Below, piece after piece: positions 23,087-53,113 of a stretch of DNA of 64,000 nt; position 1 is the stretch's first letter; the number at the start of each line of letters is the position of its first letter. This DNA is from Lujinxingiaceae bacterium (lineage in GTDB: Bacteria > Myxococcota_A > Bradymonadia > Bradymonadales > Bradymonadaceae). The translations under genes were made by a program, and so were the position numbers. The notes under the pieces are model-generated. The model worked only from the letters and a program-made list of their open reading frames with translations, had not been told where the DNA came from and ran no database searches. The stretch is from assembly GCA_013697635.1 (NCBI GenBank), contig JACCWM010000037.1, forward strand, positions 1-64,000. Direction: 5' to 3'.

Positions 23087-24526
23087 CTAGGTCAGGTTGA
23101 GGGGCACGGGCGACATGTTGTTCGCGGGCAAGCCGAAGCCGTTCTCGAAAGGGACGCCGGCGAGGCGGCCTAATGCAGCGAGCACGTCGGCGGTGTGGTA
23201 GATGCTGAGGTGATCGCCGTAGTTGAGGCCGCTTGAGGCCATGGAGCCGTCGCGGGTCTGGCCGCCGATAAAGACGCCGTTGCGATTTCTGGGGTCCACC
23301 AGGGGCGCTTTGATCCAGCGGCCTCGGCGCAGGCGCTGGCCGCCGCCGATCAGGATATGGAGCTTGTTGCGGGTATCGTGGTTGCCGGTTCCGACCTCGC
23401 CGGTGAGCATGATGATCGTGTTGTCGAGCAAGGTGGTGCCGCCGATGTCGGGGATCGTGTCCAGGCGCTGGGTGAAGGCGACCATCTTCTCGACGTACCA
23501 GCGCACCCAGCCCTCATACGAGAGACGCGCTCGCTCAGGATCTTCGTGGGACGAGCCATGGTGGGCCACGTAATGGTGGAAATCGTTCTCCCAGGGATTG
23601 CCGGTCTGGATAATTCCGTTCTTGTCGCGCCACTGCCAGTCGTCGATTCCCTCACCAAATCCCATGACGGCGACGCGGTGGGTGTCGGCCTGGAAGACCA
23701 GTCGAACCATATCGAGGTACTGATCGACCTGGGCGCTGAAGTTCGGGCTCTGCACCGGTCGGTCTGGAATCTCATCGAGGGAGAGCACGATCTCCGAGCG
23801 CGCTCGCAGGCGGTCTCCGAGCTGCGTGAAGGCATCGACGTAGCCTTCGAGTTTGGAGCGCTCCGAGCCGCGGACGTTGCGCAACATCCGGTCGGTGTCG
23901 CGCTTCATGAACTCAAAGATCCGATCGCGCACGGCGTCGCGCCCGGGCATCGGGGGAGCCAGGCCGTCGCGAATTGGACCGATGATGCCGTCGTAGGCGT
24001 CTTCTGGCTTGAAGTAGAAGTCTTGCACGCGCAGGGCGTCGTCAAAACAGCTCGGATTCGAGCGCCGTCCCCAGGAGGCGTAATTCGCCGTCACGCGCAA
24101 GACCTGAGAGCCCCAGTGGCGGGCAATCACGTGGTCGATCGAGGGGCCCATGGGCTCGGGGAAATGTGTCCCGAGCTGATCGGATCCGTGCTCATCGAAG
24201 CAGACCGCCGCGGTGAACATATCGGAATACGAGACGTCATGGGCGTTGCCCCAGAGCGTGCCGCGAGCGCCGTCGATGAACACACACTGATCTTTGATCG
24301 CCTCGAGGCCTTCGAGCGGTGCGGGGATGGTGAAGTCAAATTCCGAGCCGGTGAACGCGCGGCCCAATTCGAGATCGCGGCCCCAACCATGAGTAAGCGG
24401 CACCAAGAGCACACGAAGCGGCGCTTCGGGTTCATTGCCAAGCGCCACACGCGAGCCCATCAACGATGCGGCCAGGCCCGTTGCGCCCATTCCCTTCAAA
24501 AATGTTCTGCGATCAAACTTGGTCAT
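23087..24526 (-). CDS. DUF1552 family Tat-exported protein
   Basis: A 479-residue DUF1552 protein, a family common in Myxococcota and Planctomycetota and distantly related to the DUF1501/sulfatase-type fold; its reaction is unknown. A twin-arginine signal peptide is visible (DRRTFLKGMGATGLAASLMG). Conserved DUF1552 blocks include 'AHDVSYSDMFTAAVCFDEHG', 'GPSIDHVIARHWG', 'DEIPDRPVQSPNFSAQVDQY' and 'TTLLDNTIIMLTGEVGTGNH'. The start at 24526 has GGAGACC upstream and overlaps the DUF1592 stop by 4 bases (ATGA), so the two are translationally coupled. Confidence 0.9.
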   Translation of the reverse strand: MTKFDRRTFLKGMGATGLAASLMGSRVALGNEPEAPLRVLLVPLTHGWGRDLELGRAFTGSEFDFTIPAPLEGLEAIKDQCVFIDGARGTLWGNAHDVSYSDMFTAAVCFDEHGSDQLGTHFPEPMGPSIDHVIARHWGSQVLRVTANYASWGRRSNPSCFDDALRVQDFYFKPEDAYDGIIGPIRDGLAPPMPGRDAVRDRIFEFMKRDTDRMLRNVRGSERSKLEGYVDAFTQLGDRLRARSEIVLSLDEIPDRPVQSPNFSAQVDQYLDMVRLVFQADTHRVAVMGFGEGIDDWQWRDKNGIIQTGNPWENDFHHYVAHHGSSHEDPERARLSYEGWVRWYVEKMVAFTQRLDTIPDIGGTTLLDNTIIMLTGEVGTGNHDTRNKLHILIGGGQRLRRGRWIKAPLVDPRNRNGVFIGGQTRDGSMASSGLNYGDHLSIYHTADVLAALGRLAGVPFENGFGLPANNMSPVPLNLT

Positions 24527-26232
24527 GGGGTCTCCTTCACCTGGCGAGCCGTGAAACTCGGGGTCGTCACGATGGCTTCGACCAGCTCGTCGATCGCTCC
24601 GTTGCTCTTGTTGAACTTGGTGTAGATCGCTTCGCGCTCTTCGCGCCGGGGCGCATCTCCGAGCACGTAGGTGAAGAACTGGTCCGAGAGACACGAGCGC
24701 AGCGCCTCCGAGTTCGCTAGAGCGGCGATGTACTCGACGCTGTTATTGAACGCGAGCAGCTCCTGCCCCAGGACGAGCTCACCCGATGCGTCGATCTGCA
24801 CGTTCTCTTTTTCGACAAGACGGTAGCGACCGACGGCGTCGTAATTTTCATATCCAAAGCCTGCCGGGTCGATCATGCGATGACAGGCGATGCAGGTGGC
24901 CTGTGAGCTATGGCGAACGGAGAGCACCTCGCGGCTTGTCTCCTGAGCATCGTTGAACTCGGCCGGGACGTCGTTACGCGCCGAGATATCCGGAGGCGGA
25001 GCGCCCAGAGGAACGCAGAGCAGTTGCTCGAGGGTGAACACCCCGCGCTTGACGATGCCGCTGTCGAACGCGCCAGCATGGACGCTTAGAAAGGCCGGGT
25101 GGGAAAGCACACCCAGGCGCTGTGCCGGGTCCATCGCGATCACCTCGAAGCTGCCGCTTGCCACGACAGGCACACCAAAGAATGAGGCGCTCTGACTATC
25201 GACGTGAAAATTCGTGGCCTTGAAGGGGTCGAGCAGGCTGGCGCCTGGCATCGAGAAGATCTGCACGAGGTCACTTCTCACACCTTCGAACAAGGACGCG
25301 CGGGTCTCTTCGGTGAGGCCGTAGGCCGCCGCCTTGGTCTGAGCAAAGACCGCTTCGAGCTTTAGATAATCGATGAAAAAGGCAGCCAGTGCCTCGGCGA
25401 CTCGCTGATCGGCGGCCATACGATTGGCCTGAGCGATCAGAGTTTCACGATCGCTCAGCGCGCCCTGGGCGGCTAACGCATAAAGCTCGTCGTCGGGCGG
25501 TGCGTTCCACAGGGTATAGGCGAGCGCGCTGGCGAGCTCATAATCGGTCAGCGCCACGACTTTGCCTTCGCCCTGTCCAAGCTCGGTGCGATACATCGTG
25601 TGAGGGGAGACCAGCAGGGCCTGTACCAGAAACTCCGCCTGTTCCGCACGCGTTGCCGGCGCTTGAGCAATCTGCGCGCGGGTATTTAGGAGGTCGTTAC
25701 GCTCTTCGGTGGCCACCGGGCGCCGCCAGAGCTGATGGCCAATCTCATCGACGAACTGCCCAAAGCAGGTGTCGGTGCTCGCTGCCACACAATCGCGCAC
25801 GCTCGGCATGTTGATCACGGCGGCCCGTGCGATCCCCTGTGTGGACGCGTAGATGCTCTCGACGTTGATGTCATTGACACGCAGATTTGAGGGGCTGTTG
25901 TTCATGCCGATCGTCGGGGAATCGTCTCCAAATCGCGGCAAATCCCCGCGTTCAAAGACATCGCCCAGGGCCTGGCGCAGCGTATTCTCATACTGCTTCG
26001 AGGTCAGGCGACGAAGATGCGCCGTCGTCACCTCCACCGCCCCCGGCTCCCCCGGTTTTGGTTGAGGCGACGTGTTATTGCTTGCAGGATTTGTCGCCGG
26101 AGGCCCCACCTGATCCTGCAACTCTTTGTCAAACAAGAGCTTTCCCTCACAGCCCACGATTCCAAGAGCTATCACCGCACTGATCGCTAAAATAGCGTAC
26201 CGGTGAGAGTTTGGTGTGCATTCAATGCTCAT
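24523..26232 (-). CDS. DUF1592/DUF1588/DUF1585 domain lipoprotein
   Basis: A 569-residue predicted lipoprotein (lipobox ALGIVGC, Cys about 28). The usual domain order of this family is visible: DUF1587 ('HLRRLTSKQYENTLRQALGD'), DUF1595 ('GHQLWRRPVATEERNDLL'), DUF1592 ('YELASALAYTLWNAPPDDEL'), DUF1588 ('VKRGVFTLEQLLCVPLGAPP', then 'ATCIACHRMIDPAGFGYENY') and DUF1585 ('SCLSDQFFTYVLGD' to the end). The CIACH is a possible haem-c site. Function is unknown but these proteins nearly always pair with DUF1552, as here (4-base overlap). Confidence 0.9.
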   Translation of the reverse strand: MSIECTPNSHRYAILAISAVIALGIVGCEGKLLFDKELQDQVGPPATNPASNNTSPQPKPGEPGAVEVTTAHLRRLTSKQYENTLRQALGDVFERGDLPRFGDDSPTIGMNNSPSNLRVNDINVESIYASTQGIARAAVINMPSVRDCVAASTDTCFGQFVDEIGHQLWRRPVATEERNDLLNTRAQIAQAPATRAEQAEFLVQALLVSPHTMYRTELGQGEGKVVALTDYELASALAYTLWNAPPDDELYALAAQGALSDRETLIAQANRMAADQRVAEALAAFFIDYLKLEAVFAQTKAAAYGLTEETRASLFEGVRSDLVQIFSMPGASLLDPFKATNFHVDSQSASFFGVPVVASGSFEVIAMDPAQRLGVLSHPAFLSVHAGAFDSGIVKRGVFTLEQLLCVPLGAPPPDISARNDVPAEFNDAQETSREVLSVRHSSQATCIACHRMIDPAGFGYENYDAVGRYRLVEKENVQIDASGELVLGQELLAFNNSVEYIAALANSEALRSCLSDQFFTYVLGDAPRREEREAIYTKFNKSNGAIDELVEAIVTTPSFTARQVKETP

Positions 26233-26624: not shown

Positions 26625-28172
26625 TCAGGGATTGTCCTCCCCGTAGCGCAGATAGCCGCGGCACTGCCAGCGCTGCTCGTCGCTGGTGTACTGCTCGCGG
26701 GGCATGGTGCAGTCGAGGGTGGTAGCCGCTGAGGCGCAGATCTCGGCGGAGGACGGTGGGGCCTCGATGAGCGTGCGTACAAAATTGTTGTGGGGGTTGG
26801 CCTCGAGCAGGAGGTGGTCTGGGTCGACGCGCACCTCGAGCCAGTGGGGTCCGGCCGCATCGGACTCCTCGGGGGTGCCGAGGATCAAGAGTTGGCCGGG
26901 CAGGTGCTTGCCGTAGGCGTCCTTCCAGCCCTGGGTGATGCCCTGGCGCAGACTATTGCAGGTGGGAGGATCGAGGTAGGCGCGGCGGCCGTCGAAGATC
27001 ACCTGGATCTCCTCGTCGAAGGGCGACAGATCCATCAGGCAGAAGGAGATTTTCTTGGCCGTCTGGCGATAGCAGGAGGCCTCGCGGGGCGTGCCGTATT
27101 GGCACTCGGCGCGTGGCTCGACCAGGGCCATGTCCAGCCAGCCCAGGAAGTGGAAGTGCTCGTGGGGGATGTGGTACTCGAAGCCGCCGTCGCTCAAAGT
27201 GCGCTCGTCGAGGCGGCCATCGGACCAGTCGATGGTCTGCAGCACCTGCTCCTCGCCATTGACCTCGGCGGCGCGCAGGTGCAGGCCGCCGGTGCCGACG
27301 TTGGCCGCGCCGACGGTGACGCGCAGGCCGATCAGGCGCTCGTGGCGGTGGCCGGCCGGCAGCAGCGTGCACTGCCAGGCGCGGTCGTCGAGGTCGCGGG
27401 GATCGATGATCAGGTCCGGCAAGCGGGGATGTGCGACGTCTTTTTTGGCCAGCGCGAAGTCCATCTGGGCGCAACGCTCGGCGCGGGAGCGATCGGCCTC
27501 GCAGTGAGACGGGGCGCAGTCGGCGAGGTAGCCGGCGTGGTAGCGGTAGAAGATCCCGGGGTAGTAGCCGGGCTTGTCGATGCGGATGCGGTACCAGCGA
27601 TCGGGATCGAGGCTTGTCCTGGAGGTGGCGTCGGGACAGCCGTCAGCCTCGGGAAAGAGGGCGTAGTTGGAGGCGCCAAAGGGCACAGCCGCGGTGAGCA
27701 CGGCGTGATCAGGGCTGTCTGCGCGAAAGTTCAGGGCCCACTTCGTCGTCCAATGCGCAAGCTCAGAAGGCGGCCAGGCGTAGAAGCGCAGGGTGGCGTC
27801 CTCAATCCATTCGTGATCAGCGAGAGCAGTGACGCCGCCGCGGGTGATCTCGAGGACAATGCTGGGATCAGGATCGGGATCGGGATCGGGATCAGGATCA
27901 GGATCAGGATCAGGATCAGGATCAGGATCAGGATCAGGATCAGGATCAGGATCAGGATCAGGATCAGGGTCGGGGGCGGTGCAGGAGCCGCAATTTACGG
28001 CGCGACTCACCTGGCAGCTGTCGCGAGTTGCGAGCAAGCCACACGCCTGGTTTCTGTCGGCGCAGAGCTCGGCGGCCGTCTCGGGGACGCACTCGCAGCC
28101 GGCGGCGAAGAAGGTGATGCTCAGCAAGAGGAGCAGGGCCAGGGTACAGGACATCCGTGTCTCGATTTTCAT
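26625..28172 (-). CDS. Lysyl-oxidase-like secreted lipoprotein with (Asp-Pro)n linker
   Basis: A 515-residue exported protein. Signal peptide with lipobox FAAGC (Cys about 26), then a Cys-rich segment (about 26-67). An Asp-Pro repeat of about 17 units (68-102) leads into the main domain. Near residue 335, 'EYHIPHEHFHFLGWLDMALV' has the H-x-H-x-H copper-ligand pattern of bacterial lysyl oxidases, and surrounding cysteines (AECQYG, ASCYRQ, SFCLMD) fit the family. Such enzymes oxidise protein lysine side chains, but activity here is unproven. It lies 19 bases behind the haem lipoprotein gene and is probably the last operon gene. Confidence 0.8.
   Translation of the reverse strand: MKIETRMSCTLALLLLLSITFFAAGCECVPETAAELCADRNQACGLLATRDSCQVSRAVNCGSCTAPDPDPDPDPDPDPDPDPDPDPDPDPDPDPDPDPDPDPSIVLEITRGGVTALADHEWIEDATLRFYAWPPSELAHWTTKWALNFRADSPDHAVLTAAVPFGASNYALFPEADGCPDATSRTSLDPDRWYRIRIDKPGYYPGIFYRYHAGYLADCAPSHCEADRSRAERCAQMDFALAKKDVAHPRLPDLIIDPRDLDDRAWQCTLLPAGHRHERLIGLRVTVGAANVGTGGLHLRAAEVNGEEQVLQTIDWSDGRLDERTLSDGGFEYHIPHEHFHFLGWLDMALVEPRAECQYGTPREASCYRQTAKKISFCLMDLSPFDEEIQVIFDGRRAYLDPPTCNSLRQGITQGWKDAYGKHLPGQLLILGTPEESDAAGPHWLEVRVDPDHLLLEANPHNNFVRTLIEAPPSSAEICASAATTLDCTMPREQYTSDEQRWQCRGYLRYGEDNP
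27865..27966 (-). repeat. Hexanucleotide microsatellite inside the lysyl-oxidase-like gene
   Basis: Seventeen tandem GGATCA/GGATCG units on the plus strand occupy 102 bases (14 GGATCA and 3 GGATCG). On the coding minus strand they specify alternating Asp and Pro. As units are 6 bases, copy changes keep the frame and only alter linker length. Confidence 0.95.
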
Positions 28173-28191
28173 GGCAGTGTTCTCGTCAGGG

Positions 28192-30831
28192 TCAAAGGGA
28201 GTTCAGGAACTGAATCAGGTCGTCGAGCTCTGCGGGGGAGAGGTGGCTGGTGCCACCGTGGGAGTCGCTTACGCCATCGGCTTCGTTGTAGCCGTTTTCG
28301 CCCGCCGCCAGGGCTGGATGGTGGGGGGTGGCGAGGACTTCGCGCAGGCTGCGAGCGCGGCCGTCGTGCAAAAACATGGGGGCGCGGTCCCAGAGGCCGA
28401 CGAGCGCGGGTGACTTCAAGCGCAGGTCGCTTTGATCCTGTTTTACGCCGGGGAAGCGGGCCAGAAACGCGGCGGTGACAAGATCGAGGTTGAGGCCGCT
28501 GCTGTCGCGGTTGGGCGTGATCACCGGCCCGAAGAGCAGCGGCATGGCAAGCGGATTGTTCGAGGCCGTGAGGCCAAAGCTCGGCCCCGGATGACAGGCG
28601 GCGCAGCCCTGGCTTGGCGAGTGGAATAGGCGCCGGCCCCGCTCGACGCTGGCCGTCGTCGCCGGGTTGGGGTTAGGCAGCAGCGCCGGCTCCTGGATCA
28701 AGAAAAGCCCGACGAGACGGGTCATGCCGGCAAAATCGAGGGGCGTATCGATCGCTCGCCCAAAGCTGTGGCGGCGGCCGATGAGCCCCTCGGCCGTATC
28801 CTGAAAAGAGGCGTCGCGGCTGGCCAGCGAGGCGAAGTTCTCCCGGTGGGCGAACTCCTCGAGCACGGCCACCGTCGTGTCCACGTCCATGGCGCCCTCG
28901 AGAAACCAGGGCAGGCGATCGAGCAGGCCGCGGTTGTCCATGGTGATGCGCGAGCCGCGGGTATCGGCCAGCAGCGGCATGCTGAAGGCCTTGGCGATGC
29001 TGCCGCGATCGAGGTGGCAGTGGTTGCAGGTTTGGTCGCCGTCGGTCGAGAACTGAGCACCCGAGAAGTAGAGCAGCTCGCCCAACTCGGCGTCGGTGGC
29101 CGGAAAGGCGGCCGGGGGATCGTCGTCGAGCGCGATCGTGTGCACGACTTGAAAGCGCTCCAAGTCCACGACGCTGACGGACTCGCCGAGCCGGTTGGCG
29201 ACATAGGCCTCGGCATGTGTGGGGTGCAGGGCGATCGCTCGCGGATCAAAGCCCGTGGAGACGATTGGGCCAGCGAGCAGGCCGCCGCCCTGCTCGACCG
29301 AGAAGCGCTGCAGCTCGGAGGAGCCGGCGTAGGCGACGAGCAAGCTCACGGTGGTGTCCGATGATCTGGCCAGCGCCATGGCCATGGGCAGCGCTCCGCC
29401 GACGATCCACAGCGCGGGATCGGGCACCAGGTGGCCCAGGCGCGCGTCGTCAGGGCCGACGTCGCGAAAATCGCGACAACAGTAGCTGTCCGAGGTGTAG
29501 CGCACCGTCGGGTAGAGCGTGGCATCCCTGACGATCCGAAAGACGGCGAGCTCGTTTTGCAGGGCCTGAAAGCCCTGGTTCGGCGAACCGGTGGTGGGCG
29601 TGGTGTAGCGATGGGCGTCGGGCTCGGTGCCGGGCGGGTGGTGCGTGCTCTGGGAGAGCGTGCTCACAAAGAGCTGGCCGCCGACCGTGGCGAGCCCGAG
29701 CGCCGGAGCACCGAGCTTGAGGCGACTGATGCCCGCCGGGGCGCCAAAGTCCGTGGTCGCAGGGTCGTCGTCGAGATCAACCTCGAAAAGCGTCTGCGTG
29801 TCGATTACGGCGACCGTCAGGGCCGCTGGCGAGGCGACAAAGAGCAGCCTGGCGTCATCGGAGAGGCTCAGGGCCGCTGGGTTTGTGCCCGCGGGGATCG
29901 TCTTGATCGCCATCAAGCGCAAGCCTTTGGTCGCAGCCTCGACCTCGAAGACCTGCACGGCGTCGCGCCAGCGATTGGTCACGTAGAGGCGAGCGCCGTC
30001 GGGGGAGAAGAGCGGCGTCGTCATATAAAAGTCCGACGCGAGGCGGCTCACCTGCGCAGTCTTCAAATCGAGCACGCTCAGGTAGTTGGAGAAGCGATTG
30101 GCCACGACCAGAAAGCGCCCACCCGGGTGCACGGCCACACCCGTTGGGCCGCTGCCCACCTTGTGACGGCGCACCAGCGTGCGTGTGGCGAGGTCGATCT
30201 CGGCGAGCTCTCGGGCCGGCCGGTCCACCGAGCCTTGAAGGGCGACGAAGAGTCGCGAGCCCTGCGTGTCGACGGCCAGCGCGACCGGTTTGTCGCGCCG
30301 AGGTTGGGGCTCAAAGCGTGGATCGTGTGGCCCAAAAGGATTGGACCCGGCTTGAAGGTCGCGAAACGGCCCGCCCTCCTCTCTCAATGGTTCTTCCCCC
30401 ACCCAGTCAGCGAGCGCGCGGTATTCGGGATCGCCGCGCGTGAGAAAGATGTCGCCTCCGGCGCGGTGGCGCACGCCGGAGATCTGCTCGGCCAGCGGCT
30501 TTTGCAGCAGCAGCGGCCCGCGGCCCTCATCGCGCGCAAAGGAGCGGGCGCGGTCGTAGTTGCCCTGCACCTCGGCGGGCGTCAAGTCGTGGTCGAGGAA
30601 GACGTCGGCGGCCTGCAGGCGGTGTGCACCCTGCGCAAAGAGCGCGAAGGGCCGGTCGGCGCGGCCGTGGCAGGAGGGGTTCGCGCAGCGATTGAGCAGC
30701 AGGGGCTGCACCTCTTCGACGAAGCGCTCGAATGAAGGGCTTGGCCAGGCCGGCGCGGGCGCAGGCGCCTCGGCCGGGGCGCAGCCCGTGGTCAGCAAAA
30801 AGAGCGCGATCATTGCCCGGATTGCAGTCAT
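28192..30831 (-). CDS. Multihaem lipoprotein: beta-propeller plus cytochrome-c-peroxidase-like domain
   Basis: An 879-residue predicted lipoprotein (lipobox LLTTGC, Cys17). A CX4CH site, C49-H55 (CANPSCH), lies near the N-terminus. Residues about 130-550 form a YVTN/lactonase-like beta-propeller ('GVAVHPGGRFLVVANRFSNY', 'LVAYAGSSELQRFSVEQ'). The C-terminal part resembles di-haem MauG/cytochrome c peroxidase proteins, with CNHCH ('DGDQTCNHCHLDRGS') and CAACH ('PSQGCAACHPGPSFG') sites. It should act in the periplasm or outer surface in electron transfer. Its start overlaps the stop of the upstream 951-residue gene by 4 bases. Confidence 0.85.
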   Translation of the reverse strand: MTAIRAMIALFLLTTGCAPAEAPAPAPAWPSPSFERFVEEVQPLLLNRCANPSCHGRADRPFALFAQGAHRLQAADVFLDHDLTPAEVQGNYDRARSFARDEGRGPLLLQKPLAEQISGVRHRAGGDIFLTRGDPEYRALADWVGEEPLREEGGPFRDLQAGSNPFGPHDPRFEPQPRRDKPVALAVDTQGSRLFVALQGSVDRPARELAEIDLATRTLVRRHKVGSGPTGVAVHPGGRFLVVANRFSNYLSVLDLKTAQVSRLASDFYMTTPLFSPDGARLYVTNRWRDAVQVFEVEAATKGLRLMAIKTIPAGTNPAALSLSDDARLLFVASPAALTVAVIDTQTLFEVDLDDDPATTDFGAPAGISRLKLGAPALGLATVGGQLFVSTLSQSTHHPPGTEPDAHRYTTPTTGSPNQGFQALQNELAVFRIVRDATLYPTVRYTSDSYCCRDFRDVGPDDARLGHLVPDPALWIVGGALPMAMALARSSDTTVSLLVAYAGSSELQRFSVEQGGGLLAGPIVSTGFDPRAIALHPTHAEAYVANRLGESVSVVDLERFQVVHTIALDDDPPAAFPATDAELGELLYFSGAQFSTDGDQTCNHCHLDRGSIAKAFSMPLLADTRGSRITMDNRGLLDRLPWFLEGAMDVDTTVAVLEEFAHRENFASLASRDASFQDTAEGLIGRRHSFGRAIDTPLDFAGMTRLVGLFLIQEPALLPNPNPATTASVERGRRLFHSPSQGCAACHPGPSFGLTASNNPLAMPLLFGPVITPNRDSSGLNLDLVTAAFLARFPGVKQDQSDLRLKSPALVGLWDRAPMFLHDGRARSLREVLATPHHPALAAGENGYNEADGVSDSHGGTSHLSPAELDDLIQFLNSL

Positions 30832-33683
30832 TGATGTTCCTCGAGCAGGTAGTGGGCGCCGGTCTCGATCCAGCGCACCAGAACGAGCCGCTCCTCGTCG
30901 CTGAGGCCGAGCGCGGGGTGGGCGATGAGCGCACGCGGGGCGTCGAGCTCGCGCTCGTAGACCAGCTCGATCAGATAGCTCGAGCGGGCTTGAGTGTGCG
31001 TCACGTCGACGTACTTTCGAGCGCCACCGGAGCCGTAGCCCTCGACGAGCAGCGCGCCGTAGGCCGCTTGCACGGGCTCGAGGACGAGGCCCGTGCCGGT
31101 CGCGCCGTGACAGCCGGCATTGGCGCAGCGCTGCTCGATGATCGGCCAGACGGCGCGCGCAAAGTCGATCTCCTGGCGCGTCGCGTCTGTGAGCACTACA
31201 GGCGGCCGGGGCAGGCGCGGATTGCGGTCGACGTAGCGGGCCAGTGTGACCGTCGCCCCGGTGAGCGTATCGGTTGGACCGAAGAGATCGGCCCCCTTGC
31301 CAGACGCCGCGCCGTGACATCCGCCGCAGCGCGCATCGTAGAGATGGCGGCCCACCGACTCCTTGAAGTGCTGGCCCGGCCAGTTGAAGAGCCAGCGGTT
31401 GTGCTGAACGCCCAAGGCCATGCGATCGGCGTCCAAGAGCTGGGTTCGAAACGCCACGCCCGCTGGCACGACCACGTGCACCGAGTGATCGTCGTAGAGC
31501 GCGACCTCGCCCAGGATGCGCGCGCCGGTGGCCTGGCCCGCGTGCCTGGGAGCATGAGGCAGCGCCTCGACAAAGCGCATGTAGCGCGCGTCTGTGCGAA
31601 AGCGCTTGGGCCCGGTCGGGAACAGGCTCTCCAAGATGCCCTGGTTGACCGGCGCGTCGTCAATGCTCACGAGCGAGGCAGCCAGCGGGTCGAGCACCAC
31701 GGCGCTCGGGCCGCCGAGCGCGCGCACGATCACCGGGCGCGCCGAGTGTACGGAGAGCCCGCCCGCGCGGTCCTCGACCCAGACGTCTCGCGCGATCAAG
31801 TTGGGCAAACACGCGCTGGTCACGCAGCCCGACGTGGCCTCCTCAAAGCGCAGATGAACGATGCGAAAGCGCGGGCGCGCCTCGGGATCGCCCAGATCGA
31901 TCGGGCCCGGCGCCCAGGCCGCGAGGATCGAGCCGTCCGCGAGCGCCGCCGGATCGCGGTAGATGCCGCCGACCGAGCGCCCGCGGGCCGAGACCGAAGG
32001 ATCGAGCACGCGAAAGTTGCGCACCGCCGGCGCGACGGCGGCCTTGTCCACAGGCGTTGCGGCCTGTAGCTGCGGCCCCAGATTGCGATCGATTAGGCCG
32101 AGGCGACCTCCCGCCCAGACGTTGTCCGGGTCGCCGGCGATCGTGAGCGCGCGCCCGTCGGGAAGCTCGACGAACTCGAAGAAGAGGCGCTCCTCGGGCG
32201 TGATGCCGAAATAGATGTGGTAGTCGACGTGCAGATCGAGCGGAAAGGAGAAGCCCACCGTCTCGTCCGCGTCGCCGAAGATGCGCCGATGGGCGAAGAC
32301 CAGGTAGCCCTGCATCGCCCCGACGTTGAAGCGGCGAGGATTGAGCTCGGGTCCCGGCCCAAAGGTGAGGCGCTCGGGCGGCTGGCCCGGGCCCGCCAGC
32401 CGGTAGATCGACATGTCCCGCGTCTGCAGCCCGTCGGCCAGCGTGTCGTGGCGGTTGGAGACAAAGTAGATCTCGTGCGCGCTGGCGTAGACGGGCATGA
32501 CGTTGGCCAGCACCGCCCCCGAAGCGAGCCGGGCCGGATCGGCGGTGAGCGCGCGCGCCTCGCCGGTGGCCAGGGTCAGCTCAAAGAGCTGCAAGCCCTC
32601 GGCCTCGGAGCGGCGCATCGCAAAGGCCACGCGCAGGCCATCGGGCGAGACGGCCGGATGACGGATATCGGCCGCGCCGGCGTGCAGGTGGGCCGTGAGG
32701 TTCTGGTCGACGCCGTCGGGCCCGGCAGGCGTGCGCAAGATGATGTCGCTGCCCGGCACAAAGCTGGACTGGTCGAAGCCCAGGCCCGCTTGTACCGGGC
32801 CTCGCACGTAGATCAAGGCTTCGACGCCGCGCCCTGCCCGCTCGCCCAGGGCCGCGCGCTGCTCGAGCGTCGCCCAGGCCAGGATGTCGTCGGTGGCCGG
32901 GTCATCCCAGCCCGTGAAGAAGGTGCGGTTTCCTCCACGGTGGGTGATGCCGCCGGCCTCCAGCGGCAGCCCTTTTTTGAGCAGGCGGCTCTGAGCGGCG
33001 TCGCCGTCGAGCGAGAGAAAGGGCAGCGAGGCCTCGTAGTTGTGGCGGGTCATGGCCCTACTCAACGCGATCTGGCCTTCGGCGGTAACCACGCCGGGAT
33101 CGAGGCGGTAAGGGACAAAGGATTCGGGGCCGTGACAGGCCGCGACCGCGCAGCCACGACTGAGCAGGTGCGGCTGGACGCGCTCGGCGAAGAAGCGCTC
33201 AGCGGGCCCGGCGCGCTCGCCAGCCCGATCCTGGCCAGCCAGATCCTCGCCGCCCCCCTGCTCGAGCGCAATCCAGGCTCTGACGGCCTCCAACCCGGGG
33301 TCCGACGGCGAGAGAAAGTTTGTGCCGCCGCCGTGCGGCAGGCCGCCGTAGACCTCGGCCATGGGCTTTCGCACGAGCGAGGAGAAGCGTGGATTGTCCG
33401 CCGTGTTGATGAAGCGCTGGCTCGCAGCGCGGGCCGCCTGCCAGTCCAAGATCCGCCCGGAGAGGTCGGTGCGAAGGTAGAAGCCGCCCTCTTCGAGCGA
33501 CTCGCCACGCGCTAATCCCGCGTTTGTGTAGCCGTGGCAGACCGCGGCAGCGCAGCGGGCCTCGAGCACAGGGAGCACATCCTCTCGAAAGCGCTCGCCA
33601 GCCGGGTCTGAAGCCGTCGTCTGGCACCCCACGAGCGCCAAGAGTGTCAGGATCGCGAGGACAGCGGCCGCGCGCGGGGTCAT
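30828..33683 (-). CDS. Tetrahaem-motif beta-propeller lipoprotein with flavinylation motif
   Basis: A 951-residue predicted lipoprotein (lipobox ALVGC, Cys20). Four haem-c-type motifs are visible: CAAAVCH (44-50), CAVAACH (about 180), CGGCH (786-790) and CANAGCH (853-859); three are CX4CH. The centre (about 290-720) has TolB/PD40-like propeller strands ('HPAVSPDGLRVAFAMRRSEA') and may resemble the middle part of HzsA-like proteins. Residues 805-811 read DTLTGAT, fitting the ApbE target consensus Dxx(S/T)GAT, so Thr811 could carry covalent FMN. Start and stop overlap both neighbouring genes by 4 bases. Confidence 0.85.
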   Translation of the reverse strand: MTPRAAAVLAILTLLALVGCQTTASDPAGERFREDVLPVLEARCAAAVCHGYTNAGLARGESLEEGGFYLRTDLSGRILDWQAARAASQRFINTADNPRFSSLVRKPMAEVYGGLPHGGGTNFLSPSDPGLEAVRAWIALEQGGGEDLAGQDRAGERAGPAERFFAERVQPHLLSRGCAVAACHGPESFVPYRLDPGVVTAEGQIALSRAMTRHNYEASLPFLSLDGDAAQSRLLKKGLPLEAGGITHRGGNRTFFTGWDDPATDDILAWATLEQRAALGERAGRGVEALIYVRGPVQAGLGFDQSSFVPGSDIILRTPAGPDGVDQNLTAHLHAGAADIRHPAVSPDGLRVAFAMRRSEAEGLQLFELTLATGEARALTADPARLASGAVLANVMPVYASAHEIYFVSNRHDTLADGLQTRDMSIYRLAGPGQPPERLTFGPGPELNPRRFNVGAMQGYLVFAHRRIFGDADETVGFSFPLDLHVDYHIYFGITPEERLFFEFVELPDGRALTIAGDPDNVWAGGRLGLIDRNLGPQLQAATPVDKAAVAPAVRNFRVLDPSVSARGRSVGGIYRDPAALADGSILAAWAPGPIDLGDPEARPRFRIVHLRFEEATSGCVTSACLPNLIARDVWVEDRAGGLSVHSARPVIVRALGGPSAVVLDPLAASLVSIDDAPVNQGILESLFPTGPKRFRTDARYMRFVEALPHAPRHAGQATGARILGEVALYDDHSVHVVVPAGVAFRTQLLDADRMALGVQHNRWLFNWPGQHFKESVGRHLYDARCGGCHGAASGKGADLFGPTDTLTGATVTLARYVDRNPRLPRPPVVLTDATRQEIDFARAVWPIIEQRCANAGCHGATGTGLVLEPVQAAYGALLVEGYGSGGARKYVDVTHTQARSSYLIELVYERELDAPRALIAHPALGLSDEERLVLVRWIETGAHYLLEEHQ

Positions 33684-34192
33684 GGCGCGACCTCCTCGTC
33701 GAGGAGCTCGCGGATCTGGGCCTCGATCAGGGCCTTGTCGGCCTCGCGAAAGCCAACATGGCGGTAGCGCACCTTGCCTGTGCGATCGATTAAGTACGAG
33801 GTCGGCATCGTCGGCGGGCCAAAGCGCGTCGCGGCCTTGTGCCCGGAGTCGAGCAGCACCGGGAAGGTAAGGCCGGCCGCCGCGACAAAGCGCTCCACGG
33901 CCTTGCGGTCCTCGTCCACGCTCACGGCAAGCACCGTGAAACCGCGGGCCTGGTGTTGGGCATAGAGCGCGGCGAAGAAAGGTAGAGACGTGCGACACGG
34001 CGCGCACCAGCTCGCCCAGAAGTCCACGAGGACCACCGTGCCCCGATAACTGGCCAGCGCCACGGTCGTGGCGTCGAGCGCTTCGAGCTCGAGCACGGGG
34101 CGATCGCCGGGCGCCACCTGTGCCTGCGCCCAGCGCGCCGACACCAATACGAGCAGCGAGGAGATGAGGATGATCAGGATGCGCGTCTTCAT
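33680..34192 (-). CDS. TlpA-like periplasmic thioredoxin-fold protein
   Basis: A 170-residue exported thiol-disulfide protein. The signal peptide (about 1-24, ending WAQA) is followed by an AhpC/TSA-TlpA fold with 'VVLVDFWASWCAPCRTSLPF' (redox pair WCAPC), the cis-Pro region 'GPPTMPTSYLIDRTGKVRYR' and 'VGFREADK'. Such proteins commonly reduce cysteines of apocytochromes or metal-site proteins in the periplasm. Within this operon the likely clients are the haem-motif lipoproteins or the CGC-tailed DUF4266 protein. It overlaps both neighbours by 4 bases. Confidence 0.92.
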   Translation of the reverse strand: MKTRILIILISSLLVLVSARWAQAQVAPGDRPVLELEALDATTVALASYRGTVVLVDFWASWCAPCRTSLPFFAALYAQHQARGFTVLAVSVDEDRKAVERFVAAAGLTFPVLLDSGHKAATRFGPPTMPTSYLIDRTGKVRYRHVGFREADKALIEAQIRELLDEEVAP

Positions 34193-35277
34193 GGCACAAA
34201 CTCCATGGACAAGGTGAGGATGAACAGGTGACCGAGCATTCGGTCTCGAACCGCGTACTCCGCGAAGCGGTAGAGCGTGGCGTCGTAGCTCGTGCTCAGC
34301 ACGAAGCCTTTGGGCCGAAAATCCAGGCGCAGACCGGCGCCAAACGAGTTCATCGTCGAGAGCCGGTGGTCGCCGCTGCGCAAGCCCACCGGGTCGACAT
34401 AGTGTTGCTGATAGAAGTGGGCTCCCTGCTGCGTGTAGCCGCGCAGGCGCAGGCGCAGGCGCACCAGGTCCTCCCAAAGCGTTTGCCAGGCCTCGAGCCG
34501 GGCGGTGTGACTGCGCATGCGCCAGTCGTCCAGGTACAGCCGGTAGGCCGCGCGCAGGGCCAGGCTCGGCGTCGCCGACCAGATCCCGAGCAGCTCGCTT
34601 GCGTGGCGCGTGCGTTGTGCGGGCACGGCCTCGCTCATGACCAGCGAGGGCCGCTCGAGATCGCGCTCGTAGATGGGCACCAGCCGGTAGGGATTGGCCT
34701 GATAGCCTTTGCGATGCTCCACGCTGTAGACGATGTGGCCCACGAGGCGCGGGCTCAATATCTGGGTCCAGGCCAGCTCGCCAGCGACGATCGTCAGCTG
34801 CTCGTCAAAAGCGCTGACGTCGGCGCGCAGGACGCGATCCAGCCCCAGGCGAGCACCGACGCCCAGCGTCGCGTGGCGATCAAAGAGCTCGCGCGAGGCC
34901 GAGAGCGCGCCGGTGTGGCTTTGATAATCCGGCTCCAGACTCAGGATGTAGCGGCTACCCAGCTCGGTGCGAGGCAGCGGCCGCCAGCGCACGGCCGCCC
35001 CACCCTCGTGGCGCGTCTCTTGATACTGCGTGGCGCGGGTGATCGTATCGGGCGCCGACATCAGCGGCGTCGCCGCGGTGATCACGTCCGTCGCCCAGTG
35101 TGTGGAGACATCGAGCGACTCGCCAAGCGGCGCGCTGGCCACGAGCTGCGGCGAGCTCACCTCGACGCTGGCATCGCTAAAGCCCTGGTAGGTCGCGGCC
35201 ACCCGCGCGCGCTCGCTCGTCGCGCAGCCGCTGGCGACGAGCAGCAAGCACACGCCGATGCCAGCGCTCAGTTGCAT
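34189..35277 (-). CDS. DUF3570 family outer-membrane-type lipoprotein
   Basis: A 362-residue protein with a lipobox (LVASGC, Cys about 18) and a body of alternating beta-strands that look like an outer-membrane barrel. DUF3570 features are seen at 'SVEHRKGYQANPYRLVPIYE', 'RTRHASELLGIWSATPSLAL' and 'AAYRLYLDDWRMRSHTARLE'. Function is not established for the family. DUF3570 genes often stand beside DUF4266, thioredoxin-fold and apbE genes (family knowledge from memory), the very arrangement here. The start overlaps the DUF4266 stop by 10 bases. Confidence 0.85.
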   Translation of the reverse strand: MQLSAGIGVCLLLVASGCATSERARVAATYQGFSDASVEVSSPQLVASAPLGESLDVSTHWATDVITAATPLMSAPDTITRATQYQETRHEGGAAVRWRPLPRTELGSRYILSLEPDYQSHTGALSASRELFDRHATLGVGARLGLDRVLRADVSAFDEQLTIVAGELAWTQILSPRLVGHIVYSVEHRKGYQANPYRLVPIYERDLERPSLVMSEAVPAQRTRHASELLGIWSATPSLALRAAYRLYLDDWRMRSHTARLEAWQTLWEDLVRLRLRLRGYTQQGAHFYQQHYVDPVGLRSGDHRLSTMNSFGAGLRLDFRPKGFVLSTSYDATLYRFAEYAVRDRMLGHLFILTLSMEFVP

Positions 35278-35477
35278 CCGCACCCTCCCCCACCGCCCGA
35301 GAGGCCGCCGGAAGCGCCCTCGCGTGTCGCCTCGAGCTTGCCCAGCGCGCCGGCCTCGTCCGCGTCGACGACGATCTGCATGCAGTCGTGGGCCAGCCGG
35401 CCGCGCTCCCAGGGTTTGACACCCGCACAGCCCCAGGCCAGCGCCCAGACGAGCAATATCGGGATCCATCGCGCCAT
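35268..35477 (-). CDS. DUF4266 small lipoprotein with Gly-rich CGC tail
   Basis: A 69-residue protein. The signal peptide ends in lipobox ALAWGC (Cys about 17). The mature peptide has the DUF4266 signature VKPWERGRLAHDCM and ends in REGASGG...GGGGCGCN, a glycine-rich tail with two cysteines. The tail may bind a metal or act as a redox or modification site; this is inference. It is placed between apbE (10-base gap) and the DUF3570 gene (10-base overlap), so it is certainly part of that unit. Confidence 0.88.
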   Translation of the reverse strand: MARWIPILLVWALAWGCAGVKPWERGRLAHDCMQIVVDADEAGALGKLEATREGASGGLSGGGGGCGCN

Positions 35478-35487
35478 GATCTCCCCC

Positions 35488-36540
35488 TCAATCGCGGTTG
35501 GGCTCGAAGAACTGACCGAAGCCGCTCGATGTGTGCACGCGCATATCGGGGCCGATCACCAGCGCCTCGACCCCGGCCAAGCGCTCGACGAGCTTCAGCG
35601 CCTCAGCCGGCCCCAGCACAAAGAGGCCCGTGGCCAACCCGTCGGCCAACATGGCGTCGGGCGCGATCACGGTCACGGCCACCGAGGCTCGCGCGACCTG
35701 GCCCGTGGTCGGATCGATGATGTGGTGGTAGCGCTCGCCATCGAGCTCGAAGTAGCGCTCGTAATCACCCGAGGTGACCACAGCCCCCGCGCTCAGATGC
35801 AGCCGCCCGAGCAGCGCCCCTTGCTGGCGCGGATGGGCAACCCCAACCGACCAGGGCCGGTCGATGCGCTGGCCTTTGAGCCGGATGTCCCCCCCACCGT
35901 CGACGACGTAGTCGGTGATGCCATGGGCCTCCAGCACGGAGGCTGCCCGGTCCACACCGTAGCCCTTGCCGATGCCGCCCACCCCGATGCGCGTCTGCTT
36001 CGCCCTCAAGAAGATTGTGCGCGCCTCATTGAGCTCGATGCGGCGATAATCGATATGCGCCCGGCACTCGCCCACCTCCTCCATCGAGGGAATGCGCCGC
36101 TTGCCCACCGACCACAAATGCCCGCAGCTCGCAAAGGTGATATCGAAGGCGCCCCTTGTCAGCGCCGACAACGCCACGGCCTGCTCGACCACCGCATAGA
36201 GCTCCGGCCCCACAGCCACTGCCTTGAGCCCGGCCTGCCGGTTGACCTCACTGATCTCGCTCGTCGACTGCCACTCGCTGATCAGCGCCTCGACTCGCCC
36301 GATCTCCAGCAACGCCGCCTCCACCGCCCCAGCCGCCACCCGCTCATCGACCGAGACGACCTGGATCTCGAAGCGCGTACCCATCAGCGCCTGCTCGCGA
36401 CGCAGCACCTGGGCCACCGCCGGCCCGCCAGCAGATGAAACCGCGGCGGCTGGCCCACTCGCCAGCTCGCCGCGCACACCGCATCCAGTTAGAAAACACA
36501 CAACAACAAGCGCTACAGAAAATCGACACAATCCATCCAT
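35488..36540 (-). CDS. apbE: FAD:protein FMN transferase
   Basis: Transfers FMN from FAD to a Thr/Ser in client proteins outside the cytoplasm, using Mg2+. The 350-residue lipoprotein (lipobox FLTGC, Cys about 20) shows the ApbE landmarks MGTRFEI (about 53), 'VGGIGKGYGVDRAASVLEAH' (FAD/Mg site), 'VVDGGGDIRLKG', 'SGDYERYFELDGERYHHIID' and 'DAMLADGLATGLFVLG' (295-310). It is the first gene of the operon. Its probable client is the 951-residue lipoprotein five genes into the operon, which carries a matching motif. Confidence 0.95.
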   Translation of the reverse strand: MDGLCRFSVALVVVCFLTGCGVRGELASGPAAAVSSAGGPAVAQVLRREQALMGTRFEIQVVSVDERVAAGAVEAALLEIGRVEALISEWQSTSEISEVNRQAGLKAVAVGPELYAVVEQAVALSALTRGAFDITFASCGHLWSVGKRRIPSMEEVGECRAHIDYRRIELNEARTIFLRAKQTRIGVGGIGKGYGVDRAASVLEAHGITDYVVDGGGDIRLKGQRIDRPWSVGVAHPRQQGALLGRLHLSAGAVVTSGDYERYFELDGERYHHIIDPTTGQVARASVAVTVIAPDAMLADGLATGLFVLGPAEALKLVERLAGVEALVIGPDMRVHTSSGFGQFFEPNRD

Positions 36541-36786
36541 GGCCTCGCTCCAATCCCGTATGATTTAAGCTACATACCGGAATGTGCGTGCCCTCGAGGC
36601 CGACGATATGATCGAGATCATATCCGGACTTTTCTCCTGTGGACGCGACTTGCCCGGGTAACGGGGTGCCGCTCCGGGCATGCATGCCCGAGCTACGTGT
36701 GCCCTGTTGTAATCGCACCGATGCGTGTACCGTCACACCACGGCCCGTTTGTGATACTCAGGAGCGCTCATCCAAGGAGAACAGCT
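36541..36786. promoter_or_regulatory. Divergent promoter region with Crp/Fnr-like palindrome
   Basis: This gap separates apbE (minus) from a secreted protein gene (plus). GATATGATCGAGATCATATC at 36605-36624 is a perfect 9-2-9 inverted repeat whose core TGAT-N4-ATCA equals the Fnr/Crp half-site core. It is centred 74 bases upstream of the apbE start. A TATGTA hexamer (36576-36571, minus) could be a -10, though spacing to the box is not ideal. A second palindrome, CGGGCATGCATGCCCG, is at 36675-36690. Confidence 0.5.
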
Positions 36787-37398
36787 GTGCGAGCAAAATA
36801 CGCAGCGACAATGTTGTTGGTTTTATTGAGTTTAACCCTTGGCACCACGCTGGCTATGGCCGATGAGGAGCCGGGAGCGGCCAGGTCCGACAAAGCGACG
36901 GCGGTGCTGGAAGCCATGGAGTTGCCGGAGGCTGCCCACAACCTGCGCCAGGCCGGCGTGCCCAACGAAGACGTCAAATTGGCCCTCGAGTCCTTGAAGG
37001 CGAGTAAGAAAGAAGCGTCCGAGGAGCGCGCAGCACGGCGTTCGGCACGTGTACTCAAGGCCGAAGTCGAGACCGCTCGCCAGCTTGGCCCGATGGACGG
37101 CTTCGGAGTCTTTGTCCGTGAGCAGGTCAAAGACGGCGTGCGCGGCCAAGAACTCGCCCAGGCCATTCGCGACCACCGGGAGGGACGTCGACCCGACACG
37201 GCCGGCGAGGCTGGAAAAGCGGGCGAGGCTGGAAAAGCGGGAGTGGCTGGAAAAGCTGGAGTGGCTGGGAAAGCTGGAAAGTCTGGAGAAGCGGCCGAGA
37301 CTGAAAAAGAAAAAGACGGCGTGGATGGCGTGACTGGAAAAGGCGGCGGGGCTGGAAAAGCTGGACAGGCTGGAAAAGCCGCGCCAGCCCGTCCCTAA
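36787..37398 (+). CDS. Secreted protein with collagen-like Gly-Xaa-Ala tail
   Basis: A 203-residue exported protein. The GTG start at 36787 has AAGGAG 8 bases upstream and gives a clean signal peptide (about 1-25, ending TLAMA). An earlier ATG would bury the signal. Residues about 30-135 are charged and probably helical ('NLRQAGVPNEDVKLALESLK'). From about 137 the chain is a run of Gly-X-Ala triplets (GEAGKAGEAGKAGVAGKAGV), resembling collagen-like repeats without proline. Function is unknown. A lipoprotein gene follows after 51 bases. Confidence 0.7.
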   Translation: MRAKYAATMLLVLLSLTLGTTLAMADEEPGAARSDKATAVLEAMELPEAAHNLRQAGVPNEDVKLALESLKASKKEASEERAARRSARVLKAEVETARQLGPMDGFGVFVREQVKDGVRGQELAQAIRDHREGRRPDTAGEAGKAGEAGKAGVAGKAGVAGKAGKSGEAAETEKEKDGVDGVTGKGGGAGKAGQAGKAAPARP

Positions 37399-52285: not shown

Positions 52286-53113
52286 ATGCTACACGTGATT
52301 CACATTTTGGAGGTGATGCTGCCGCTCCTTTATCTGGGAGTATTTGGCCTCTATTTGCGCCATTTCCTACAGAGCAAAGATCACGGCACGCCTTTTCGAG
52401 GCACGCATTTTCTCTACGCCGCGCTGGTCTTGCACGTCAGCTACCTGACGCTTCGGGGCATCACTTTTCACCACTTTCCGGTCTCCTCGCGCGCGGAATT
52501 TCTCTCGCTGGTGGCGCTTTGTGTGGGCCTGGTCTACGCCTTTGCCGAGACCCGGCACAAAGAATCCGACACGGGCGCCTTCTTCATCGCGATCGTGGCC
52601 ATCCTCCAGGTCATGGCCTCGCTGATGGTTGAGGACTCGACCACGCACCTGATCTTGCACGAAAACCCGGTCTACGGCGTGCACGTGATCTTTACGATGT
52701 TTGGCTTTGCCGCGCTCGCCGTCAGCGCGCTTTATGCGCTGATGTACGTGCTACTCTCGCGCCAGCTCAAGTCGCGCGAGCTGGGCGTGATCTTTCGCCG
52801 GCTTCCGCCACTCTCGGCGCTCGAGAACATGAGCCGGCTCGCCGCCACTTCGGGCATCGCCCTGCTGGGGTTGGGCCTTGCGCTGGGCCACTTCGTGGGC
52901 CTGTACATCATGGACGACTTCAACTTTACCGATCCGAAGATCCTGATCACCGACATCGCATGGCTGGCCTACGCGCTGGGTCTGCTCGTCGTCAAAGTGC
53001 GCGGCCTCTCGGGCCTTCGCATGGCCTACTTCTCGCTCTTTGGCTACATGACCTTCATTCTTGCGATGGTCGCCGTCAACACGTTCTCCAGTACGTTTCA
53101 CTCGTTTCAATGA
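52286..53113 (+). CDS. hemX: HemX/CcsA-like cytochrome c assembly membrane protein
   Basis: A 275-residue inner-membrane protein with about eight transmembrane segments. The cytochrome c assembly (CcsA/HemX) pattern is seen in 'FYAALVLHVSYLTLRGITFH'-like and 'YGVHVIFTMFGFAALAVSAL' segments with histidines that could bind haem, plus 'LDITDIAWLAYALGLLV'-like end helices. GGAG precedes the ATG. In many bacteria hemX stands directly before hemA and modulates haem synthesis, as here (23-base gap). It could alternatively be a system II cytochrome c maturation protein. Confidence 0.82.
   Translation: MLHVIHILEVMLPLLYLGVFGLYLRHFLQSKDHGTPFRGTHFLYAALVLHVSYLTLRGITFHHFPVSSRAEFLSLVALCVGLVYAFAETRHKESDTGAFFIAIVAILQVMASLMVEDSTTHLILHENPVYGVHVIFTMFGFAALAVSALYALMYVLLSRQLKSRELGVIFRRLPPLSALENMSRLAATSGIALLGLGLALGHFVGLYIMDDFNFTDPKILITDIAWLAYALGLLVVKVRGLSGLRMAYFSLFGYMTFILAMVAVNTFSSTFHSFQ

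Follow-up and report, generated by a model that had tools for sequence, protein, structure and literature searches.

In a 64,000-nucleotide stretch of genome from a Lujinxingiaceae bacterium, a member of the Myxococcota (contig JACCWM010000037.1, positions 1 to 64,000; hereafter the window), seven open reading frames (ORFs) lie head to tail on the minus strand, at 26625-36540, and join a known flavinylation module to a pair of haem lipoproteins homologous to the subunits of hydrazine synthase (HZS). Judged from sequence, this combination is conserved across a class and has a sister arrangement in several phyla, and the operon suggests that electrons are transferred in the cell envelope by a system not yet described. 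We give a probability of about one half to the reading in which the covalent-flavin module and the HZS-like haem complex act as one chain. The seven genes are, in order of reading:

35488..36540, minus strand: apbE, FAD:protein flavin mononucleotide (FMN) transferase (Pfam ApbE, E=3.5e-83, model positions 1-265 of 266)
35268..35477, minus strand: DUF4266 small lipoprotein with a C-terminal CGCN (CxC) (Pfam DUF4266, E=2.1e-15)
34189..35277, minus strand: DUF3570, predicted flavinylated outer-membrane beta-barrel (Pfam, E=5.1e-34)
33680..34192, minus strand: TlpA/ResA-type periplasmic thioredoxin (WCAPC) (AhpC-TSA, 1.4e-26; Redoxin, 2.2e-26)
30828..33683, minus strand: HzsA-like lipoprotein, 951 residues (HZS alpha 5c2v_A, E=2.1e-35 by profile)
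28192..30831, minus strand: HzsBC-like lipoprotein, 879 residues (phmmer: 5c2v_B, 7.4e-12; 5c2v_C, 1.8e-5)
26625..28172, minus strand: lysyl-oxidase-like (LOX-like) lipoprotein, 515 residues, with an (Asp-Pro)n linker (alignment, and paralogues over the Pfam Lysyl_oxidase cut-off)

An earlier, sequence-only reading of this DNA had proposed the same genes in the same order on one strand between the same coordinates, with which the ORFs and Pfam agree, and its junctions match exactly (four overlaps, one of 10 bases and three of 4 bases, and two gaps, of 10 and 19 bases). Its naming of the first four genes is upheld by the Pfam matches listed. By pattern only, six of the seven proteins carry a lipobox, LTGC with Cys20 in the apbE product, and the thioredoxin has a plain hydrophobic signal.

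Conservation of the cluster and its flavoproteins

The gene order is kept in relatives and is therefore not a product of chance. It had been stated beforehand that scattered homologues in close relatives would speak against the operon; the linked runs found in relatives go against that outcome. The closest whole-genome relatives of the window include G018, G019 and G015. The complete seven-gene order is present in G019, with apbE cut by the contig end; in G018 the first five genes are present before the contig stops, and the last three are found in both G015 and G020, again in runs that reach contig ends. Most other members of the window's family lack both the HzsA-like protein and DUF3570, and among 57 genomes of the class, six of the eight with an HzsA-like protein also carry DUF3570 (Fisher P=2e-5).

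A scan of public genomes retrieved 29 HzsA-like loci, which are spread over Myxococcota, Gammaproteobacteria, Planctomycetota, Acidobacteria and other groups. apbE is found at 13 of 32 distinct homologous loci; copy number and genome size would predict 0.2 (Poisson P=1e-19, which overstates independence since the 32 loci share ancestry). No apbE was detected near the hzs genes in 10 anammox loci, in flanks of about 8 kb wherever the contig is long enough. In these gene maps a simple gene caller misses small or overlapping genes (for example DUF4266 in the window, ApbE in L078), and ORF-level searches served as a cross-check.

Aside from the anammox proteins and one distant Planctomycetes sequence, the HzsA-like tree resolves into two supported clades, and a long, fully supported branch separates the HzsA-like proteins from anammox HzsA. 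The first clade is made of bins labelled Myxococcota or Deltaproteobacteria and one labelled Pseudomonadota; its linked flavoprotein is DUF3570, accompanied by DUF4266. The second clade spans Gammaproteobacteria, Planctomycetota, Acidobacteria, Myxococcota and one Deltaproteobacteria-labelled bin, and DUF3570 was not found at its loci. There, the neighbours of the haem pair are either RnfC-like, FMN_bind (SGAT motif), RnfD and small multihaem genes, or RnfD (TGAS motif) and NuoF/NuoG-like genes. Since the two sister clades carry different flavoprotein modules, the link to flavin persists while the flavoprotein is exchanged, and this exchange is the strongest argument that the flavin and haem parts work together. 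We found no account of such an exchange beside the HzsA-like pair in the open-access literature, and no open-access paper that names both hydrazine synthase and ApbE; subscription journals were outside the search.

Several neighbouring features were recorded at these loci. In one planctomycete, ApbE is fused to a formylglycine-generating-enzyme (FGE-sulfatase) domain beside the HZS-like pair (L086, 17293-19170); at L088 (16994-18616), the FGE part is retained, and Pfam does not detect the ApbE part. More distant HzsA-like/HzsBC-like pairs occur in Planctomycetota (L092, L093), and no ApbE was found nearby. A lipoprotein-like family of 160-190 residues with a GFQGF motif adjoins DUF3570 in those Myxococcota clusters that do not belong to the family of the window (L048, 13377-13895; L050, 10120-10698; L072, 18629-19171; L078, 14220-14705; L079, 14670-15221); the one member tested has no confident Pfam match.

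Flavinylation module, haem pair and neighbouring genes

The window's genome contains a single ApbE match, a single DUF3570 match and no match to FMN_bind, DUF2271 or RnfD/NqrB. FMN_bind and DUF2271, considered as other ApbE substrates, were thus set aside, and by these profile counts the genome offers ApbE no recognised candidate substrate besides DUF3570. The DUF3570 protein of Chlorobium luteolum is flavinylated by its ApbE at two sites (PMC8238504). Two predicted attachment motifs, which keep the pattern D-x-x-[S/T]-x-A-[S/T], align with sites of relatives in the window protein:

35068..35088, minus strand: first predicted FMN-attachment motif, DVITAAT, DUF3570 residues 64-70 (aligned with DVVTGAT, DVISGAT and DAVSGAT in relatives)
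35029..35049, minus strand: second predicted FMN-attachment motif, DTITRAT, DUF3570 residues 77-83 (aligned with DVYTRAT, DAYSRAS and DAVSAAT in relatives)

In the AlphaFold model of DUF3570 (pLDDT 88.9, pTM 0.83) we counted 16 strands, and the best Foldseek matches are outer-membrane barrels (such as FepA, OmpG and the OprD family) with E-values down to 3.6e-9 and modest TM-scores of about 0.4-0.6; the protein is confidently predicted to be a 16-strand outer-membrane beta-barrel. The motifs occupy the end of strand 3 and a disordered hairpin between strands 3 and 4 (residues 64-83), and the long connections of the model are all on the hairpin's side. The termini of outer-membrane barrels are usually periplasmic. 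If this holds here, the hairpin side would be extracellular, and DUF3570 would then have to be flavinylated before its insertion into the membrane. Such an order fits the recovery of modified DUF3570 from the cell pellet (PMC8238504).

Clusters of ApbE, DUF3570, thioredoxin and DUF4266, with or without DsbD, have already been reported, and the DUF4266 CxC has been described as a possible redox pair (PMC8238504). The tendency of these genes to sit together, named in the sequence-only reading, is thus published, and the apbE/DUF4266/DUF3570/thioredoxin half of the operon is this known module. The thioredoxin matches the ResA subfamily PRK03147 at 2.6e-31, below the family's cut-off, and shows no PF13899 match in Pfam and NCBIfam profile scans. 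DsbD is absent from the operon; three DsbD-family (DsbD_TM) matches lie elsewhere in the genome.

A profile built from eleven relatives of the 951-residue protein matches HZS alpha among PDB entries in three segments, the propeller, the middle haem domain and the C-terminal haem domain, and the protein also matches NF052339 (HZS alpha, 4e-8) and PF18582 (8.1e-6). Its architecture comprises two N-terminal CX4CH domains, a TolB/PD40-type propeller and the HZS-alpha middle and C-terminal haem domains. The 879-residue protein, which phmmer aligns to HZS beta (5c2v_B) and gamma (5c2v_C), matches the NCBIfam models for beta (NF052340, 3.1e-15), gamma (NF052341, 4.7e-7) and MbnH-type proteins (4.2e-7), and its C-terminal half matches Pfam CCP_MauG (1.5e-4). 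It combines a CX4CH cytochrome domain, a YVTN/lactonase beta-propeller and a MauG/CCP-type di-haem domain; in most relatives, the N-terminal CX4CH domain is a separate gene of 134-157 residues. As a control, the family sequences of the window recover HzsA in true anammox loci, and HzsB and HzsC where the contig holds them. From these matches and this recovery, the sequence-based homology of the 951-residue protein to HZS alpha, and of the 879-residue protein to a fused HZS beta-gamma, is firm. The sequence-only reading had correctly seen lipoproteins with four and three haem motifs, and had missed this homology. The haem sites are:

Haem motifs of the 951-residue protein: C44AAAVCH, C178AVAACH, C786GGCH, C853ANAGCH
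Haem motifs of the 879-residue protein: C49ANPSCH, C602NHCH, C743AACH
31314..31328, minus strand: CxxCH site CGGCHGAASG, counterpart of HZS haem alpha-I, without the Tyr591 ligand (alignment with 10 anammox HzsA)
31107..31127, minus strand: CX4CH site, counterpart of HZS haem alpha-II (alignment)

Four of the seven motifs are CX4CH rather than CxxCH. The C853 motif (CANAGCH) shares its column with the CxxCH of most relatives and of all anammox HzsA (haem alpha-II); haem binding at this position is thereby supported, and the motif is a credible variant haem site. For the other three CX4CH motifs, it is their conservation that suggests haem binding. The genome has three cytochrome-c-assembly matches; a protein of this family (PF01578) is encoded at window positions 52493-53101 (plus strand).

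Residues specific to HZS were compared as well. In HZS, zinc is bound by the His in the CxxCH of alpha-I, and Tyr591 serves as a ligand of the haem (PMC12607021, PMC12758564). All 10 anammox HzsA aligned have CHxGSY, with Tyr591 four residues past the CxxCH His, and the Tyr591 position is a gap, without a Tyr, in the window protein and in every non-anammox homologue aligned. The gamma-Cys165 position (third thioether of haem gamma-I) is likewise a gap in the window protein, and gamma-His144 is replaced by Leu. Because these three residues are absent, hydrazine synthase activity is ruled out by the residue tests, and we conclude from the alignments that the haem pair is not a hydrazine synthase. 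The same conclusion was drawn for homologues in Planctomycetota and Desulfobacterota (PMC12758564).

The seventh protein has no direct match to Pfam Lysyl_oxidase, and a PDB profile search found nothing for it. The genome also encodes two paralogues (E=1.5e-160 and 3.1e-125) that both pass the Pfam cut-off, and through them the resemblance proposed in the sequence-only reading appears real but distant. These paralogues are unlinked to the operon (L134 and L135, on G000 contigs C127 and C8). The AlphaFold model of the LOX-like domain (pLDDT 36) was not used. A copper-type HxHxH motif occurs in the window protein (HEHFH) and in one paralogue, and is missing from the three aligned orthologues of linked loci; the LOX-like gene itself is absent from the other cluster types. 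A copper centre, which had been suggested as a perhaps further element of the system, is therefore not supported as a conserved one, and by this distribution the LOX-like protein is an accessory of the window's family rather than a defining part. Lys374 and Tyr420 are invariant in the alignment, and we take them to correspond to the residues from which lysyl oxidase forms its quinone. The linker is encoded by a 6-base tandem repeat (window 27865-27968, 17 copies, 97% matches), and orthologues have Cys-rich repeats in its place.

At its 5' side, the operon is bounded by a divergent ORF on the opposite strand (about 36697-37398, plus strand), just beyond the apbE start; its product ends in GKAG-type repeats, seen in the DNA as repeats of 18 bases. 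Downstream of the LOX-like gene, the next gene on the same strand follows after about 390 bases. There, a PSCyt3/DUF1592 cytochrome-type lipoprotein and a Tat-signal DUF1552 protein are encoded (window 23087-26232), apparently outside the operon. An operon reaching this pair is unsupported, given the intervening distance, with promoter-like matches on the same strand (near the number expected by chance), and the pair does not adjoin the LOX-like gene in relatives.

A proposed electron-transfer chain and its alternatives

Judged from the sequence data above, the composition of the operon, its export signals, the HZS alpha and beta-gamma homology, the linkage and the sole recognised ApbE substrate family can be regarded as established. 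In the chain that we propose, ApbE would place two FMN groups on the DUF3570 hairpin prior to its insertion as an outer-membrane barrel. On the donor side, a thiol relay (inner-membrane DsbD family, TlpA-type thioredoxin, DUF4266 CxC) or another donor would act, and reducing equivalents would pass, in either direction, between this donor, the FMN on the barrel and the haem groups in the HzsA-like and HzsBC-like lipoproteins. Catalysis would probably take place at two centres, a di-haem site of the MauG/peroxidase type in the HzsBC-like protein and the alpha-I-type haem in the HzsA-like one. The haem pair of other phyla would be wired to an RNF-type flavoprotein instead. This reading is based on the linkage to apbE, the co-presence of HzsA-like proteins and DUF3570, the flavoproteins of the sister clade, the single ApbE and DUF3570 of the genome, the barrel fold with its motif position, the flavinylation of C. 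luteolum DUF3570, and the three DsbD-family and three cytochrome-c-assembly matches. The envelope electron-transfer system envisaged in the sequence-only reading thus survives as a conserved cluster of exported proteins pairing ApbE flavinylation with c-type haem proteins, without copper as a conserved feature.

Some observations weigh against the chain. Besides the shared ancestry of the 32 loci, contig ends truncate many of the loci. The motifs DVITAAT and DTITRAT do not follow the strict [S/T]GA[S/T] pattern and have Ala and Arg at the Gly position. DUF3570 clusters without HZS-like genes exist in the class (L054, L057, L058), and no ApbE or flavoprotein is found near the HzsA-like loci L067, L070, L077 and L092. 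Outside the family of the window, most DUF3570/HzsA clusters have no thioredoxin, and the thiol relay is thus not among the constant elements.

The DUF3570 clusters that lack HZS-like genes also favour the main competitor, in which two independent functions share one transcription unit: ApbE would flavinylate DUF3570 for its own purpose (e.g. metal or iron handling at the outer membrane), and the thioredoxin would only keep apocytochrome cysteines reduced for haem attachment. Indeed, the thioredoxin is of the ResA/TlpA kind, not the PF13899 kind of DsbD/DUF3570 clusters, and its gene directly precedes the first haem gene and overlaps each of its two neighbours by 4 bases. However, the haem pair is also linked to ApbE in the RNF-type clusters of other phyla, which have no DUF3570, so that the coincidence would be needed twice, and we consider this explanation unlikely. 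A MauG/MbnH-type role for the HzsBC-like di-haem protein, in which it would oxidatively modify another protein (perhaps the LOX-like or the HzsA-like one) with the flavin module giving or taking electrons, is quite improbable. The CCP_MauG and MbnH matches of its C-terminal half and the adjacent LOX-like gene, with its invariant Lys374 and Tyr420, agree with such a role, but the LOX-like gene is confined to one cluster type, its orthologues lack the copper ligands, and its two paralogues in the genome are unlinked. That the adjacent genes encode a genuine hydrazine synthase, in an organism with anammox-like chemistry, is hardly conceivable despite the homology of both proteins to HZS subunits, given the three lost residues, the long branch to anammox HzsA and the lack of ApbE near any anammox hzs locus examined.

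A broader proposal may be made, which we hold only tentatively: part of the non-anammox HZS superfamily would be a flavin-wired respiratory complex, connected to an RNF-type inner-membrane complex or, in Myxococcota, to a flavinylated outer-membrane barrel. This barrel would use covalent FMN, in place of haem, to move electrons across the outer membrane, and would be the flavin analogue of the porin-cytochrome conduits. Were the barrel to carry FMN across the outer membrane, it would provide a flavin-based electron route through it. The functions of non-anammox HZS homologues (PMC12758564) and of DUF3570-based flavin transfer (PMC8238504), both left open in recent papers, are now tied together: with DUF3570 and the haem pair in one cluster, and an RNF-wired sister clade, both questions become testable in one gene cluster.

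Comparison with known systems

The first half of the operon resembles the 'DsbD systems' of Meheust et al. 2021 (PMC8238504), in which ApbE, DUF3570, DUF4266 and thioredoxin genes are clustered; 316 such clusters were reported without a linked DsbD, and a PF13899-type thioredoxin is present in 183 of 285 DsbD clusters, so it is not universal (PMC8238504). By contrast, the thioredoxin of the operon is of the ResA/TlpA type, and the operon continues into HZS-like haem and LOX-like genes. That study does not mention hydrazine synthase and calls the function of DUF3570-based transfer uncertain. Of the full seven-gene composition, for which the sequence-only reading named no described system, the first half is thus published, and the extension into HZS-like haem genes is not in PMC8238504.

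Like HzsABC of anammox Planctomycetota, the haem genes lie side by side and encode an alpha protein (propeller and two haem domains) and a beta-gamma protein (propeller and MauG-type di-haem domain). Unlike them, the operon proteins lack Tyr591, gamma-Cys165 and gamma-His144 and bear extra CX4CH domains at both N termini; in the operon, the alpha gene precedes beta-gamma and apbE is present, which it is not near anammox hzs. The HZS homologues of Hagglund et al. 2025 (PMC12758564) share with the operon adjacent alpha and fused beta-gamma genes, catalytic residues that are not conserved and, in clades I-III, the alpha gene first. They were described in Planctomycetota, Desulfobacterota and a small number of other groups, where FG-GAP or ABC-transporter genes are neighbours, and Myxococcota and flavin are unmentioned (PMC12758564); Phycisphaerae hzs-like genes have also been published (PMC10732223). 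Finally, RNF/NQR-type complexes have ApbE-flavinylated subunits, and the haem pair of the sister clade stands beside RnfC-like, FMN_bind, RnfD and apbE genes. By contrast, the window's genome is without RnfD/NqrB and FMN_bind, and has DUF3570 in their place.

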